Assembly: GCA_001692895.1 (NCBI GenBank)
Contig: KV748180.1
Span: forward strand, 4,127,169 to 4,191,168
DNA length: 64,000 nt
Direction: 5' to 3'
From: Cenococcum geophilum 1.58
Taxonomy: Eukaryota > Ascomycota > Dothideomycetes > Gloniales > Gloniaceae
Position numbers and translations under genes: made by a program. This document shows positions 1,668 to 18,131 of this stretch, in pieces. Positions within the stretch are counted from its first letter, which is position 1, and each line of letters begins with the position of its first letter. The notes under the pieces are model-generated. The model made no database searches. It saw only the letters and a program-made list of their open reading frames with translations, and was not told the DNA's origin.

Positions 1668-1681
1668 AATCTATCTAAATA
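1668..1681. repeat. 14-bp target-site duplication (partner at 4341-4354)
   Basis: The sequence aatctatctaaata is present exactly at 1668-1681 and 4341-4354, immediately outside the insertion 1682-4340. The bases on either side differ, so the duplication is exactly 14 bp. A duplication of this length fits target-primed reverse transcription rather than LTR or cut-and-paste integration. Confidence 0.88.
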
Positions 1682-2575
1682 ATAATAGATTCAATTTACC
1701 GTCCGACCCGGTCCCCCTAATGGGTCCACGCAGACTAATTCCTATGGTAAAAACTCAATATTTACTGAGAAAAACCCATTTTTTGGGTGAACAAAAAACC
1801 CCCAAGGGAAACGTGAGAGGTAGTACTTCCAGATAGCATCCATACTACATTAACGGGGGGAAAAACACCGTCAGGTTGCTGCTTTAAGACTCCCCTTGCG
1901 CGGGAGTGTCTAAAATGCCTGTCTTGCCCTGTCTGCCACTTGAACCAATTTGCCACGCTATATATTACCTGTATTAAGTCGTGTACCTGCCCCTAGCTCC
2001 TTCTCCAAGTCTCCTGTGAATATCTCCTGATAATAACGCTTGCGCTCCGCCTGGGCCTGTATGCTAAGGTCTCTTATCCTTTCCTCTATCAAAAGGTTTC
2101 TATAACGGGGTGTATAACTTAGTATCGCTTTTGCCCTAGGGCCCAAACCCAGGCCCTTGCACCTATTCGTGAGGTGTAGGAGGACGCTCTAGTATTTAAT
2201 AGGGGGGACCAGTCCCTATAACTAGATACCTAGGTTGCCAGGTAATGTTAAAATGGGGGGCCTCTGCTACGCTTAGGGCGCGGATTGTTCGCGTATGTGT
2301 GTGGGTACTGCGCGGTGTATGTAGTATTCGTAGGAGGGAGGGGGTACGCCGGAGGGATAATTGCCTATCGATTCGAATGACCGAACGTGTAACGATAGAC
2401 GTGGTATATAGCTGTGTTCAACCTTTTTGCTGGGGCTCACCCCCCAGTGAAAAATTTTCGCACCACCACCACCACGTCGCTGCGCAGGCGCTGCGCAGCC
2501 GTACACACGTCTCTGCGTTTGCTCTGGTAGTCTATTAACACGATCCAAATGGAACATCAATAGTAGCTGCCAGGT
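1682..2575 (-). other. 3' part of the 2.66-kb retroposon, no recognised gene
   Basis: This is a comparatively intact, GC-richer segment. Reading on the minus strand it contains short open frames: 2273-2560 (95 codons), 1958-2146 (62 codons, Arg/Glu-rich and likely helical), and 1762-1956 (64 codons). None resembles a family I know and none has an obvious start context, so I do not call them genes. The terminal 150 bp contain three T-rich boxes (ggggttttt-like) spaced by about 25-30 bp and then tagtctgcgtgg near 1717-1730 (minus strand). That arrangement is shared with 48349-49343 and suggests a conserved 3' recognition tail. Confidence 0.5.
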
Positions 2576-4340
2576 CAGGTAGTTATATATTAGCTAGTAA
2601 TATAGTAGGGTTTAACATGCCTGCTTATCTAAGCCTCTACCCCAGTTTTCTAGTGCTTTAGTCCTAGTCTGCAAGCAGTTAGCTGCCACCACCACTCGTA
2701 CAGGGAATTTCACCATTCTTTTGGATATCTTATAACGGGTTATTAGCCTAAGTACTAGTCTGCCCCCCAGCAGTCTGTATAAGAGTCTCCTCCTAGAGTT
2801 GGTACGCTTTCGCACAGCTTAGGAGCCTTCTATAGCCTCTAGTTTCACGCCTTTTTTATTATTTCCGCCGGTATAGGCATAAGCTGCCATTTCTAGGGGT
2901 TGTAACTCCCGTTTTACGCGCCTACTGGCGTAATCCTATAAAGGCGTTATAGCTATATCCTATAATGCAGACTTAGGCGCACTTTCTATAGTTAGGCCTA
3001 GCCAAAACCTTTCTGCCTAAGTAACTCCTATTTGCTCCTTAAGTATATCTTACTAGCGTACCGCCCTAGAGACGGACGGTTCCGTTTATTAATATACTAA
3101 TACGCGCATCCGTTCTCTTAAGCTATATAGTAGTCTCTCTAGCTAAGACGTAATTCTACCTGCCTACTAGGTGCACTAAGGGTTAAAGCCTAGCTAAGGG
3201 GTAAGGTCCTTAGAGCTAGCAGTAGCTACTACGCACTACGCCCTATAGGAGGTTCCCGTTTCGCGTTGCCTATAAGAGTTTCCTTATAATAGGCTAACCG
3301 TGTCTTGTAGGAGAGGGGCTATAGAGATACTAGGTCCTATACCGGATAACTTACTTCCCCCTCTCTTACTAACTAAGCTTATATTCCCCCCTTTTATAAG
3401 CTAGCCTATATCTTTAACTATCAAGACCTTATCTAACTAGCCTATGTTTCCTCTATAGCCTCCCCTATATATATACATTAGGTTGCGTATACTACGCCTA
3501 TTAAAACCCTCCTATAAGTCGCCTTATATATATACGCATTAGGTTACGTATACTACGCCTATTAAGACCCTCCTATAAGTTACCTATAAGTCGACTAAGT
3601 TGTACACTATAGGGCCGTTAAAGCTAGCCTGTGTTTCCGCTGCCTAGAGCTTTACCTATATTTCCACCTTATTAAGCCGTTTGGTCGCCGTTACATTACT
3701 ATTATATTACTATCGCGTTGCTGTCGTCTAGGTTACGCGCACTACGCCTATTAAGACCCTCTTCTGAGTTACCTGGGTATACTAGATACCAGATAGGCCC
3801 TTATAGAGGGGCCTTAATAAGTTTTCTAGGTAGGGCCTTAATAAGTTCTTTGTAGTGGCCTTAGGGCCTTAATAAGTTTCGTATAAAGTATCTATAACGC
3901 GTTAACCTTAATAAGTTCTTATAAAAAGAGGTTCCCTATACCCTTACCGTATCCTCTTGGTCTTAGAGCTAGTATAAGCCTAAGGGTGTCCTATCGTACG
4001 CCTAGGGCGCGTTTATATTAACTAGCTAAATAAGGCCAGTTTTAGGCCTGGCTGTAAGCTAGGTAGTTATACGTTAGGCGGTTTTCGTATCCCAGTTTCC
4101 CTTAATAGCCCCCCTAGATGGTATGGCAGGAGCCCTAAGTAGGGGCAGTAGGACTCCTGGTGTTGTTAAGGGCGATATACGCGTCGTAGGCTTAACACTA
4201 CAGAGTCGCAACACCAGCGCGCTGCGCGCGCTGCGACGGCTCTCCTCCATCGCCTCTGCACTTAGCCATCATAGGGAATGATTTCCCGATAATGTTTCCA
4301 CCCGCGGCGACGTAGACGCGTGCAGTAGGGCTTCGCGGGC
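2576..4340 (-). repeat. Module X, copy 1 (1,765 bp), inverted relative to 14444-16208
   Basis: Reverse-complementing this stretch gives continuous similarity to 14444-16208 from the first base (gcccgc) to the last (actacctg), with the same length of 1,765 bp and mostly C-to-T/G-to-A differences. The better-preserved copy is this one. Its 3' portion carries an open frame at 2612-2815 (minus, 67 codons, rich in Arg and Lys). The same residues can be read, with stops, in the other copy, so this end may have been coding. No domain was recognised. Downstream of the module the two copies continue into unrelated sequence. Confidence 0.85.
4207..4239. other. GC-rich hairpin near the 5' end of module X
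   Basis: gtcgca at 4207 pairs with tgcgac ending at 4239, and the interior gcgcgc blocks can pair as well, giving an imperfect stem of about 12 bp about 100 bp inside the 5' end of the module. The equivalent hairpin is present, slightly mutated, at about 14547-14580 in copy 2. It could be an RNA structure in the retroposon transcript. It is not followed by a Helitron-type CTRR end. Confidence 0.5.
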
Positions 4341-4354
4341 AATCTATCTAAATA

Positions 4355-8118: not shown

Positions 8119-8528
8119 AGAGCTTTGTATAAAGCCTCTATACGCAGAGCTTCGTGCAGAGCCTCTATACGTAAAGCTTTATACAGAACCTCTATACGCA
8201 GAGCTTTGTATAGAGCCTCGTGTAGAGCCTTATATAGAGCTTTGTATAGAGCCTTATATAGAGCCTTATGCAGAGCTTTGTATAGAGCCTCGTGTAGAGC
8301 TTCGTGTAGAGCTTCGTGCAGAGCTTTGTATAGAGCTTTATATAGAGCTTTATATAGAGCTTTATATAGAGCTTTATATAGAGCTTTATGCAGAGCTTTA
8401 TATAGAGCTTTATACAGAGCCTTTATATGCAAAGCTTCGTATAAAGCTTTGTATAGAGCTTTGTATAGAGCTTTGTATAGAGCTTTGTATAGAGCCTTAT
8501 ATAGAGCCTCGTGCAGAGCCTCTAAATA
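8119..8528. repeat. 12-bp minisatellite (AGAGCTTTRTAT), about 34 units
   Basis: The unit is agagctttgtat/agagccttatat/agagcctcgtgc, with an exact 12-bp period. Because 12 is a multiple of three and the unit lacks stops, long frames are open on both strands: plus 8125-8529 (Arg-Ala-Leu-Tyr repeats) and minus 7992-8432 (Tyr-Lys-Ala-Leu repeats). Neither frame has independent support as a gene. A related 12-bp array occurs at 30950-31585. Confidence 0.9.
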
Positions 8529-8660
8529 ATAAGACTATATTAGATTATATAAGATTGCGTAATTAGTATATAACTTTACCTTAATTGCATGTTAAGGAAT
8601 ATACAGTTAGCTTTTAAAGTTGTTAAGTAAGTTAACTGCGTATTATTTAACTTTTAAATA

Positions 8661-14429: not shown

Positions 14430-14443
14430 TATTTTTTAGATCT
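14430..14443. repeat. 14-bp target-site duplication (partner at 18118-18131)
   Basis: tattttttagatct occurs exactly at 14430-14443 and 18118-18131, immediately outside the segment 14444-18117. The neighbouring bases differ on the outer side. The uninterrupted arrangement (...ttttttagat... followed by ctaaacttaag) matches copy 2 of unit E near 23500-23550. So 14444-18117 was inserted as one piece. Confidence 0.88.
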
Positions 14444-16208
14444 GCCCGCAAAGCCCTACTATACACATCTACGTCGCCGCGGGTGGAAACATTATCGGGA
14501 AATCATTCCCTATAATAGCTAAGTGCAGAGGCAATAAAGGAGAGCCGTCGCAGCGCGCGTAGCGCGCTAGTGTTGCAACTCTGTAGTGTTAAGCCTATAA
14601 CGTATATATCGCCCTTAACAACACTAGGAGTCCTACTGCCCCTACTTAGGGCTCCTACTATACTATCTAGGGGGGCCATTAAGGGAAACTAGGATACGAA
14701 AACCGCCTAATATATAACTACCTAGCTCGCAGCCAGGCCTAAAACTAGCCTTATTTAGCTAGTTAATATAAACGCGCCCTAGGCGTATAATAGGACACCC
14801 TTAGGCTTATACTAGCTCTAAAACTAAGAGGATACGGCAAGGGTATAGGGAACCTCTTTTTATAAGAACTTATTAAGGTTAACGCGTCGTAGATACTTTA
14901 TACAAAACTTATTAAGGCCCTAAGGCTACCGCGAAGAACTTATTAAGGCCCTACCTAAAAAACTTATTAAGGCCCCTCTATGAGGGCCTATTTAGTATCT
15001 GGTATACCTAGGTAACTTAAAAGAGGGTCTTAATAGGTATAGTGCGCGCGACCTGGACGACAGCGACGTAACAGCAACATAATGGCGACGTGACGGCGAC
15101 TAGATAGCTTAATGAGGTAGAAATACGGGTAAAGCTCTAGGCAGCGGAAACATAGGCCAGCTTTAACGGCCCTATAGTATACGACTTAGTTAACTTATAG
15201 GTAACTTATAGGAGGGTCTTAATAGGCGTAGTGCATGTAACCTAATGCGTATATATATAAGGCGACTTATAGGAGGGTCTTAATAGGCGTAGTATATATA
15301 ACCTAATATATATATATAGAGGAGGCTATAGGGGAAACACAGGCTAGTTAGATAAGGTCTTAATAGTTAGAGATATAGGCTAGCTTATAAAAGGGGGGGA
15401 CACAAGCTTAGTTAGTAGGAGAGGGGGGAGTAGGTTGTCTGGTACGGGACCTAGTATCTCTACGGCCCCTCTCCTATAAGATACGGTCGGCCTATTATAA
15501 GGAAACTCTTATAGGTAATACGAAACGGGAACCTCCTATAGGGCGTAGTATATAGTAGCCACTACTAGCTCTAAGGACCTTACCCCTTAGCTAGGCTTTA
15601 ATCCTTAGTGCACTTAATAGGTAAGTAGGATTACGTCCTAGCTAGAGAGACTATTATATGGCTTAAAAGAACGGATATGCGTATTAGTATATTAATAGAC
15701 GGAACCGTCTATCTCTAGGGTGGTATACTAGCGAGATATACTTAAGGAGTAAACAGAAGTTACTTAGGCAGGAAGGTTTTAGCTAGGCCTAACTATAGAA
15801 AGTGCGCCTAAGTCTATATTATAGGATATAGCTATAACGCCTTTATAGGATTACGCCAGTAGGCGCGTAAGACGGAAGTTACAACCCCTAGAAATGGCAG
15901 CTTATACCTATACCGGCAGAAATAATAGAAAAGGCGTAAAACTAGAGGCTATAGAAGGCTCCTAAGCTATATAAAAGCGTACTAACTTTAGGAGGAGACT
16001 CTTATATAGACTGCTAGGGGGTAAACTAGTACTTAGGCTAATAACCCGTTATAAGATATCTAAAAAAATGGTGAAATTCCCTATATAAGTAGTGGTGGCA
16101 GCCAACTGCTTGCAGACTAGGACTAAAGCACTAGAAAACTAGGGTAGAGGCTTAGATAAGTAGGTATATTAAACTCTACTATATTACTAGCTAATATATA
16201 ACTACCTG
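14444..16208 (+). repeat. Module X, copy 2 (1,765 bp)
   Basis: Same length and end points as the inverted copy at 2576-4340. This copy is more RIP-mutated: relative to copy 1 it shows additional C-to-T and G-to-A changes, for example ctatacacatc against ctgcacgcgtc just inside the 5' end. The hairpin near the 5' end is retained in weakened form. The plus strand near 15975-16180 carries the Arg/Lys-rich reading frame seen at 2612-2815, with stops. Confidence 0.85.
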
Positions 16209-18117
16209 CTATGCTAAGCCTAGATATAAGCGGAGCCTTTAACCACATATCGCATAAAAGGCTCCTATAGATCCTAAGAAAGAAGGGCCTCTTAGAATGG
16301 ATAATTAAGTTTACCCAATCCTTCTTAATAGGGCGCAATACTAAAATAGTATTTAAGGGATATAAAAGTGAAACAATACCAACACGCACAGGAATCCTAT
16401 AGGGATCACCCCTATCGCCAATCCTATTCCTATTCTTTATATCTAAGCTACTAGAGACATTTAACAACAACTAGAAAACAGTAGCCCTAGGCTTTATAGA
16501 CGATATAAACCTTATTATATAGGGAAACACAGCAGCAGAAAACTATACTAGGCTAAATTAGGCATATAACAGGTGCATCGCATAGGCAAAACGACATGGT
16601 GCCAAATTTGCACTAGATAAATACCAGCTTATCCATTTTACAAGGAAAAGGAGGGTAAACAACAACCTAGCGTCGACGGTAAGTATCTAGGGATGCGAAG
16701 CAAAGCCGGAAGCCACACTCAAGGTCCTAGGGGTCTGGGTAGACACTAAACTAAACTAAAATGCACATATTATAAAGGCGACCACTAGGGGTGCAGTAGC
16801 ATTCGCAGCAGCATTATGAATTACAGCCTCGACCTGGGGACCATTATTTAGACGTATACGACTACTATATACGGCAGTAGTAAGACCAACAATGCTATAC
16901 GGAGCCTAGATCTAGGGCCTCGGACTAAATGGCAAGCTAATAGCAAAAAGCTCCCTAGCGCCACTAGAAAAACTACAGAACTAATGCCTACGTAGAATTA
17001 CAGGAGCCTATAAGCGGACACCACGTGCCGTAATAGAACGCAAAGCAGCAGTACCACTACTTAATATCTATATAGACATAACTGCTATATAAAGAGCAGC
17101 CACAGTATAAGGACACCCGGTAGAGAAAGATATACACTAAGTACTAGAACGTATACGCGAAGCGAGGCCTTACTAGAGAGGAGTAAGGTCCTATTAAAGG
17201 CGTAATACACCCAAGTATATAAGCTAGGAGGCCCTATGCCTATAAGCAGCAGAGAGAGAACAAGAAATATGGGAGCTACTATAACACCAAGTAGAGACCC
17301 GGCGCCACGCCGGTAGAGCACCGCTACGGCAACAGAGGATAGGAGGCCACTAATATAGGTGGAGATCGACTATATATATCGCAAGATGGGCAGATATAGA
17401 GTGGAAGCGACGCTGGAAGAAGGCGGCAAAGACATAGAGAGTAGCCACGTGGAACACCCTATAGACAATACTAACTCTCCCCCTATATAAAGGACAGACA
17501 AAGGCAGAATCTACGGCTGGCTTTCTACTACGGATAAAGGTAATAGGGCTAAACGCATGGCTAGCAAGCATCTATGTCCCACAAACTACACCACACTATA
17601 CGTGCGGATGGCCCACACAACTAGTACGCCACGTGCTACTCTTTTGCAACCACCACACAGCTAGAGACTAGCTATTCACTAGGGCGGGCACAAATAATAT
17701 TACCCAAATGCTCTCTACCAGTAGAGGCCTATATGTAACGGCAAAATAGCTAATAAGCTAAGGAGTCCTCTAGCAATTCTAGACAGCATACAAGATCCAA
17801 CAGGAGGACACTGGAGGATACGCCCCCTTCCAGCCCCTTAGGGACTGGACACCCCCGCCTAGTTAAAGGCGACACGCAGGCGAACCACCTAACCCTCCTA
17901 CTACCCCCTAGATCTTCTAAGATACCCTAGAAGCATAGTACGAAAGGTAAACAAACTACAAAGATATACAGGCTAGGCGAAGGTGGAGCGCGTAAGACTA
18001 GCTAAAAGGATACACCTAGGTTTTCCCCTAATTAGGGATTTTTCCTATATAGAAGGTAGAAGCCTGCATAGACCTAGAATAGGGACCAAATCGGGCGATA
18101 AATAGAATTAATAATGA
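16209..18117 (+). pseudogene. LINE reverse transcriptase, 3' half (Tad1/I-like), in the chimera
   Basis: The frame begins MLSLDISGAFNHISHKRLL, the catalytic Asp region of the palm (motif A). It continues with TGIL.GSPLSPILFLFF (motif B) and GFIDDINLI at about 16490-16513 (the xxDD catalytic motif, both Asp intact). It then passes through the thumb region to a C-terminal zinc finger of the LINE type, CGWPTQLVRHVLLFCNHH at about 17603-17655. Only about a dozen or two stops interrupt it, fewer than in the other LINE copies, so it is the best-preserved LINE copy in the window. No poly-A is present; the tail is AATAAT-like. Confidence 0.85.
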
Positions 18118-18131
18118 TATTTTTTAGATCT

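Follow-up and report, generated by a model that had tools for sequence, protein, structure and literature searches.

A stretch of 64,000 nucleotides (nt) from the ascomycete Cenococcum geophilum 1.58 (contig KV748180.1, positions 4,127,169 to 4,191,168), here called the window, raises the question of how a 1,765-bp module came to be joined to the middle of the reverse transcriptase of a long interspersed nuclear element (LINE). An initial annotation had likened this element, at 14444-18117, to the MINEs of Magnaporthe, in which a non-coding RNA termed WEIRD is fused to a truncated LINE, and had invoked template switching by a LINE reverse transcriptase. Template switching is the best account of what we find. 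The element is very probably a MINE-type chimeric retroposon, made by template switching with a non-coding module RNA that is headed by a hepatitis delta virus (HDV)-like ribozyme. This reading is carried, at the level of sequence, by fixed module ends, many junctions, duplications that enclose both parts, one module sequence on different partners, and a ribozyme fold at module base 1. Sequence comparison adds two apparent features to the earlier reading: the ribozyme at the 5′ end and partners from several families, among them the module itself. As far as the literature found goes, this mode of spreading has been described in one other fungus, there without a ribozyme.

A module with fixed ends on many partners

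The window holds the module twice, at 14444-16208 on the forward strand and at 2576-4340 on the reverse strand. The identical ends and length first reported for the two copies were borne out: they are 90% identical from end to end over 1,765 bp without a gap. Their differences comprise 170 transitions, 0 transversions and 0 indels, and both appear to be one sequence apart from C-to-T and G-to-A decay, a type that we take to be that of repeat-induced point mutation (RIP). Repeats of this genome decay almost exclusively through transitions, and the CpA/TpG context holds 42% of all transitions between copies of class I, one of two module subfamilies described below. Downstream of 16208/16209 lies the reverse transcriptase of a LINE, here LINE A (Pfam RVT_1, E 7.7e-20; the organism-named matches listed are from Podosphaera, Aspergillus and Colletotrichum). 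The junction is clean, as all 15 fetched LINE A copies (of at least 40 genomic matches) continue through this point as LINE, without the module. A single 14-nt duplication, TATTTTTTAGATCT, encloses module and LINE, as had been proposed (14/14; best of 20 control positions, 10). The inverted copy had been taken for a module standing alone; it is instead a second chimera, in which the module is followed by 894 bp of a different retroposon (1682-2575, here retroposon E) and a separate 14-nt duplication, TATTTAGATAGATT, encloses both.

The genome search that the initial annotation called for covered 177 Mb in 162 contigs. A first search with the module gave 552 candidates, of which 40 were scored; among the 46 matches listed, 37 start at module base 1 or 2. 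Short patterns placed the module 3′ end at 236 sites (118 per strand; control 1) and its 5′ region at 210 (105 per strand; control 0). The 20 best-scoring class I copies were fetched, a choice that favours complete ones. Every one of them starts at base 1 and ends in AACTACCT followed by G or A (AACTATCTG in locus L011), while the sequence beyond varies and only L018 and L023 have a common junction. Forty further short flanks, 18 5′ and 18 3′ from matches reaching both ends and four from other lists, agree: 20/20 5′ flanks begin at base 1 (one internal change in L080) and 20/20 3′ flanks carry AACTACCT. A second module 3′ end, considered for 15 matches that stop 12-20 nt short, was rejected. 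All 15 have the same end, AACTACCT(G/A), slightly altered in L124, L130, L131 and L137, and most lack a short stretch just before it. After the final ACCTG no constant tail follows in the class I copies or the further flanks, so the LINE-like 3′ tail of its own that would mark a short interspersed nuclear element (SINE) is absent.

Nine further copies, fetched by way of a ribozyme variant, form class II, which is ∼77-85% identical to class I over longer pieces. Class I copies are heavily mutated; in class II, 7/9 copies have a G+C content above that of every class I copy and are thus less decayed. There appear to be at least two module subfamilies, with both ends kept and an interior ∼80% identical. 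In a class II copy with fewer mutations, three sense open reading frames (ORFs) gave no Pfam match at E 0.01, and a protein-coding module was rejected. A separate variant, at G000:C62, C32, C3 and C104, matches class II at nt 1-1325 and ∼1640-1727; the part between is different or absent.

The partners of the 20 class I copies fall into five families. LINE A is joined in L009 and L028, and family B, with a TTA-rich tail, in L011, L012, L013, L016, L017, L021, L022, L024, L025 and L026. Family C (∼0.6-0.7 kb) is found in L010, L015, L018, L019 and L023, family D, with an A-rich tail, in L020 and L027, and family E in L014. Pfam evidence for a reverse transcriptase pertains to family A, and B is called a LINE because of its length, the way its copies are truncated and a weak match, at the DNA level, with the reverse transcriptase stretch of A. 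Both LINE partners lie in the same orientation as the module and are truncated at variable points. Alignment to longer relatives gave clean donor junctions at many points, with many truncation points in LINE B. In L011 the module leads into the terminal 651 nt of another module, which is joined in turn to LINE B; this is apparently a double jump. A second module-to-module fusion, L043, was checked on the sequence. In L136, as read by eye, the module is fused to a 5′-truncated second module, and match tables alone suggest further such fusions (G000:C103, C9, C27, C62, C17 and C37).

An exact duplication of 12-16 nt encloses module and partner in 15/20 class I copies, and one with a single mismatch does so in 2/20 (L018, L028); the overall maximum among the controls was 12. 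Separate insertions of module and partner, an alternative raised at the outset, were rejected on the strength of the single duplication around both.

Could the module instead be the normal 5′ untranslated region (UTR) of a LINE, with the short copies arising by internal deletion? HDV-like ribozymes do head several animal and trypanosome LINEs (PMC3774820, PMC4035085, in the portions available). Locus L016 also fits: there the module is followed by 39 extra nt and then by the full-length start of LINE B, and the module stands ahead of long LINE B copies in L017, L012 and L134 (the last by eye, in a short flank). However, the fetched 5′ ends lack the module. In 10/10 copies LINE B starts with AAAAGGAGCTCTTGC after unrelated flanks (two bases shorter in L033), these ten being drawn from at least 41 matches, nearly all with the same starting point. 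LINE A has a 5′ end common to 3/3 copies, ∼3.3 kb above the window junction point, again without the module; of at least 40 LINE A matches, two are known with it, namely those of the window and L028. No Rfam ribozyme was listed at LINE A and B 5′ ends at E 0.5 (5/13 loci), a weak result since Rfam misses many modules too, and an R2-like arrangement, with a ribozyme heading a full-length LINE, is weakly disfavoured for both. The partners, moreover, come from several families and are joined at many points. A LINE 5′ UTR is thus a very unlikely identity for the module. The LINE B of L016 is itself broken near 680 nt by other sequence.

Template switching predicts that one RNA should be found on different partners. 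Copies L009, L010, L011, L014, L015 and L020 differ from one another by transitions only (pairs with 0 transversions and 0 indels link all six), and these six have six junctions: to LINE A, to family C at two points, to a second module, to E and to D. Such a set is, as expected, what independent template jumps from one RNA would leave. Conversely, L018 and L023 are the only class I pair (n = 20) to combine the same junction with module sequences that differ by transitions alone; a single chimera may have been mobilised whole, or the junction is a jump hot spot. The earlier suggestion that chimeras become new mobile genes found no backing beyond this pair, which a hot spot would explain too. 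L052 and L058 have the same junction base with module 3′ ends of different variants, which suggests a jump hot spot there because the variants differ. L051 and L061, known from short flanks only, have a common donor junction.

The first partner base, read by eye, is C in 38/46 junctions (p 3.7e-16 against 0.25), that is, in 16/20 class I copies, 17/20 short flanks and 5/6 of L043-L048. This count leaves out L042, L049 and L050, where the usual end was not found, and the second junction of L011; some junctions are non-independent, the last G/A is assigned to the module, and the C of L016 lies within its 39 extra nt. Late flanks add 13/15, for a total of 51/61 (L009-L028, L043-L048, L051-L070, L124-L138). 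The preference would follow if the module RNA ended in a C that pairs with the final G of the complementary DNA (cDNA). The constant module 3′ end with its variable partners might also recall trans-splicing of the module to partner RNAs before reverse transcription. This is hardly credible, because the donor bases ahead of the junction are not consistently AG.

A predicted ribozyme fold at module base 1

Module nt 1-85 are predicted to fold as an HDV-like ribozyme in both subfamilies, with the cut at base 1. Across 29 copies, 95.3% of 728 cells of the nested double pseudoknot (P1, P2, P3, P1.1, P4) are paired, compared with 34-56% when the pattern is slid. P1 starts precisely at the first inserted base, and C76 in J4/2, which we take to be the catalytic C, is invariant in 29/29 sequences. 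One P4 pair is G-C in 12 rows and A-U in 7. Three Rfam models match exactly at module base 1: RF00094 at 27.3-31.1 bits (L014, L013, L044, L045), RF01788 at 28.1 bits, E 0.0023 (L017), and RF02682 at 31.8 bits, E 0.016 (L043-L045). A ribozyme match was obtained for 1/1, 2/8 and 3/7 loci in the three scans.

A strict descriptor required a P1 of 7 bp, a P2, a P3 of 3 bp, an L3 starting UC, a G after P1, and C and A in J4/2. It was built from general knowledge of the class after the module was known, and its specificity is therefore the informative part. Run over all sequence then at hand, which came to 652,152 bases when both strands and any overlapping loci were counted, the descriptor gave 23 matches, representing 18 distinct places, all of them at module base 1, and plain shuffles gave 0. 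It was passed by 18 of the 34 module starts with sufficient sequence. In 30 class I by class II pairs (6 × 5 chosen copies), nt 1-90 are the only gapless 90-nt segment and have the lowest transition rate (0.061 versus 0.074-0.203); their transversion rate is not the lowest. The module 5′ end was most likely made by an HDV-like ribozyme predicted to cut just before base 1, and such a ribozyme would offer a physical reason for the exactness of that end.

Several observations weigh against this picture and the chimera reading built on it. Rfam gathering scores were not reached (best 31.1 of 50 for RF00094, 28.1 of 38 for RF01788 and 31.8 of 44 for RF02682), and most scanned copies had no listed ribozyme match (6/8 and 4/7). 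A genome search with RF00094 gave 0 matches, as did its controls, and a scan of the whole window at E 1 listed no ribozyme. The descriptor was failed by 16/34 module starts, including 14444, through changed pairs or fixed bases. Covariation is weak evidence, because most of the altered pairs reflect C-to-T or G-to-A changes, the kind that the mutation process itself produces, and because two of five covariation measures were equalled by 59 and 73 of 500 shuffles. Folded by energy alone, the first 96 nt did no better than shuffles (z −0.75) and did not display the pseudoknot, a structure that this method cannot show. Among the copies fetched, neither an intact source locus nor a signal making the 3′ end was found. 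No duplication was found within 5 kb of L012, L016 and L017 (3/20), and that of L027 is weak, its score only equalling its own control maximum. The arrangement in L016, set out above, belongs with these exceptions.

A unit length and an HDV-like ribozyme at one end also bring to mind an integrated viroid-like or delta-like RNA replicon of ∼1.7 kb, and circular folds of 4/4 mutated copies were more stable than three plain shuffles each. These folds, however, are not rod-like (30-36 hairpins; 62-64% paired versus 58-65% in shuffles), and no ribozyme was listed on the opposite strand of the loci scanned with Rfam. At 3 mismatches the genome held no unit-to-unit junction save three near matches, none with a module upstream, a result that also disposed of a tandem or circular source. 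A replicon origin is highly improbable.

Retroposon E, the partner in the second window element, may represent a second retroposon family headed by an HDV-like ribozyme, judging from its sequence. Its copies L106-L115 (400-nt loci; the element starts at nt 253 of the element strand) begin GGGCT(C/T) in 10/10 cases. By eye, duplications abut the first base in all five copies for which both flanks are at hand. The first ∼100 nt are HDV-like, with a P1 of GGGCUC/GAGCCC and an L3 of UCCACG, and Rfam drz-agam-1, whose gathering score is 37, weakly matched two of eight loci (23.0 bits with E 0.17; 21.8 bits with E 0.35).

Proposed template jumping and the nature of the module

In the mechanism that we propose, a LINE reverse transcriptase would initiate at the insertion target, with the 3′ tail of a LINE RNA, or of an RNA that depends on a LINE, as its first template. 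It would quit this template at some inner point and switch to the module as a second RNA, landing on the 3′ end of the latter. The module would be copied to its 5′ end before integration, leaving one target duplication around both parts. Its RNA would be non-coding and ∼1.76 kb long, with a 5′ end freed by the HDV-like ribozyme just before base 1 and a fixed 3′ end, ACCUG or perhaps ACCUGC, that would serve as the landing site. We infer the self-cutting of the RNA, its free 3′ end and the jumps during target-primed reverse transcription. On this mechanism, the same module on different partners would document, in nature, the points at which LINE reverse transcriptases abandon their templates.

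The closest known system is that of Magnaporthe, for which, as for the others below, the comparison draws on the portions of the cited papers at hand. In the chimeras of that fungus the non-coding RNA WEIRD, 1.1 kb long, is present in full and joined to MGL or Mg-SINE, and no solo copy of it was found (Gogvadze 2007, PMC2104539). MINEs, composed of WEIRD and MGL, resemble the present elements in having a full-length non-coding 5′ RNA of ∼1-2 kb followed by a LINE that is 5′-truncated at many points, with co-oriented parts, 10-20-nt duplications, rare double jumps and no solo copy found (PMC2104539). They differ in several respects: an HDV-like ribozyme is predicted at the module 5′ end, whereas the word 'ribozyme' is absent from the main text of that paper; the module has more partner families than MGL and Mg-SINE; and 200+ pattern matches here compare with 31 MINEs there (PMC2104539). 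The MINE-type structure suggested by the initial annotation therefore holds for the full-length module, the truncated LINE and the single duplication; it does not extend to the jump site GCC*A/U, in place of which a C preference is seen (PMC2104539). The likeness to WEIRD is one of structure.

The RNAs found in mammalian LINE-1 chimeras are small capped or RNA polymerase III RNAs. Unlike the module as predicted, they are not known to have a self-cutting end. U6-L1 and the other mammalian chimeras share with the present elements the template switching to another RNA (PMC4476161, PMC13174262). The 5′ HDV-like ribozymes of R2, R4, Dong, baggins and L1Tc are likewise predicted to cut where the inserted copy starts, at its first base (PMC3774820, PMC4035085). 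There the ribozyme heads the LINE that supplies the enzyme, whereas here it would head a non-coding RNA. The HDV class itself is represented in fungi by a variant in which the cut site is typically C-G, part of P4 is taken up by an E loop and P2 is separated from P3 by an additional base (PMC5640933); in the predicted module ribozyme the cut site is G-U (once A-U) and P2 adjoins P3 directly. A link of the fungal variants to retroelements was not found in the part of PMC5640933 at hand. Literature linking HDV-like ribozymes with template-jump chimeras was likewise absent from the matches listed by a search outside which most subscription journals lie.

What, then, is the module? One possibility, to be held tentatively, is that the module represents a housekeeping gene, its non-coding transcript having been captured by chance, as proposed for WEIRD (PMC2104539) and seen for U6 with mammalian L1. 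Copies that agree apart from transitions point to a single source RNA, and the module itself has no LINE tail. On the other hand, the fetched copies include no source locus, and more than 200 pattern matches in at least two subfamilies are an awkward fit for chance capture. To our knowledge, moreover, ribozymes at the 5′ end are a usual trait of retroelements, whereas known housekeeping RNAs do not usually carry them.

Alternatively, the module may be a parasite that spreads only as a jump acceptor; its chimeric copies would supply the transcripts, and both ends of these would be trimmed. We hold this reading somewhat less likely than not. Self-trimming at the 5′ end would make it independent of any upstream promoter, and the subfamilies keep both ends around an interior ∼80% identical. 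The close pattern counts, 210 (5′) and 236 (3′), suggest mostly complete copies, although the sensitivities of the two patterns may differ. Set against this, the 3′ trimming step is hypothetical and class I copies are heavily mutated.

Whichever its source, the template-switch reading adds to the chimera systems so far reported, those of one fungus and of mammals, a large family whose partners come from several families. It also opens to testing the puzzle of why WEIRD-type RNAs are captured repeatedly and lack solo copies. A further possibility, to be held tentatively too, is a class of retroposons without a 3′ priming tail of their own, which would combine a self-made ribozyme 5′ end with a fixed 3′ end on which reverse transcriptases from several LINE families could land, and would spread only as the last template; the WEIRD of Magnaporthe might be its second member.

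Feature coordinates and other window observations

The features of both window elements are collected in Table 1.

Table 1. Positions of the two chimeric elements and their parts, in window coordinates
Feature	Position	Strand	Evidence or remark
5′ target-site duplication TATTTTTTAGATCT	14430..14443	.	14/14 versus 18118-18131; best of 20 control positions 10
Module, full length, probably non-coding	14444..16208	+	ends as in 20/20 fetched class I copies
HDV-like ribozyme region (predicted), module nt 1-85	14444..14528	+	alignment and pair counts; transition-damaged, P2 incompletely paired, no descriptor match
LINE A 3′ part, 5′-truncated	16209..18117	+	RVT_1 at ∼16211-16738; many stop codons; tail agrees with L028
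3′ target-site duplication TATTTTTTAGATCT	18118..18131	.	14-nt pair with 14430-14443
5′ target-site duplication TATTTAGATAGATT, second copy	4341..4354	.	element on − strand; 14/14; control maximum 12
Module, full length, second copy	2576..4340	-	no transversions or indels versus 14444-16208
HDV-like ribozyme region (predicted), second copy	4256..4340	-	RF00094 27.3 bits, model 1-89, E 0.92; passes strict descriptor
Predicted cut, second copy	just before 4340, the element's first base	-	strict descriptor
Retroposon E minus its first 48 nt	1682..2575	-	40 scored genomic matches; 48 nt more at the 5′ end in 10/10 fetched copies
3′ target-site duplication TATTTAGATAGATT, second copy	1668..1681	.	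14-nt pair with 4341-4354

Elsewhere in the window, arrays with a 12-bp period lie at 8153-8534 and from 30908 to at least 31506, and are partly inverted copies of each other. The Rfam scan of the whole window listed three matches to miRNA families, all far under their gathering scores, two of which fall in a 12-bp repeat array.

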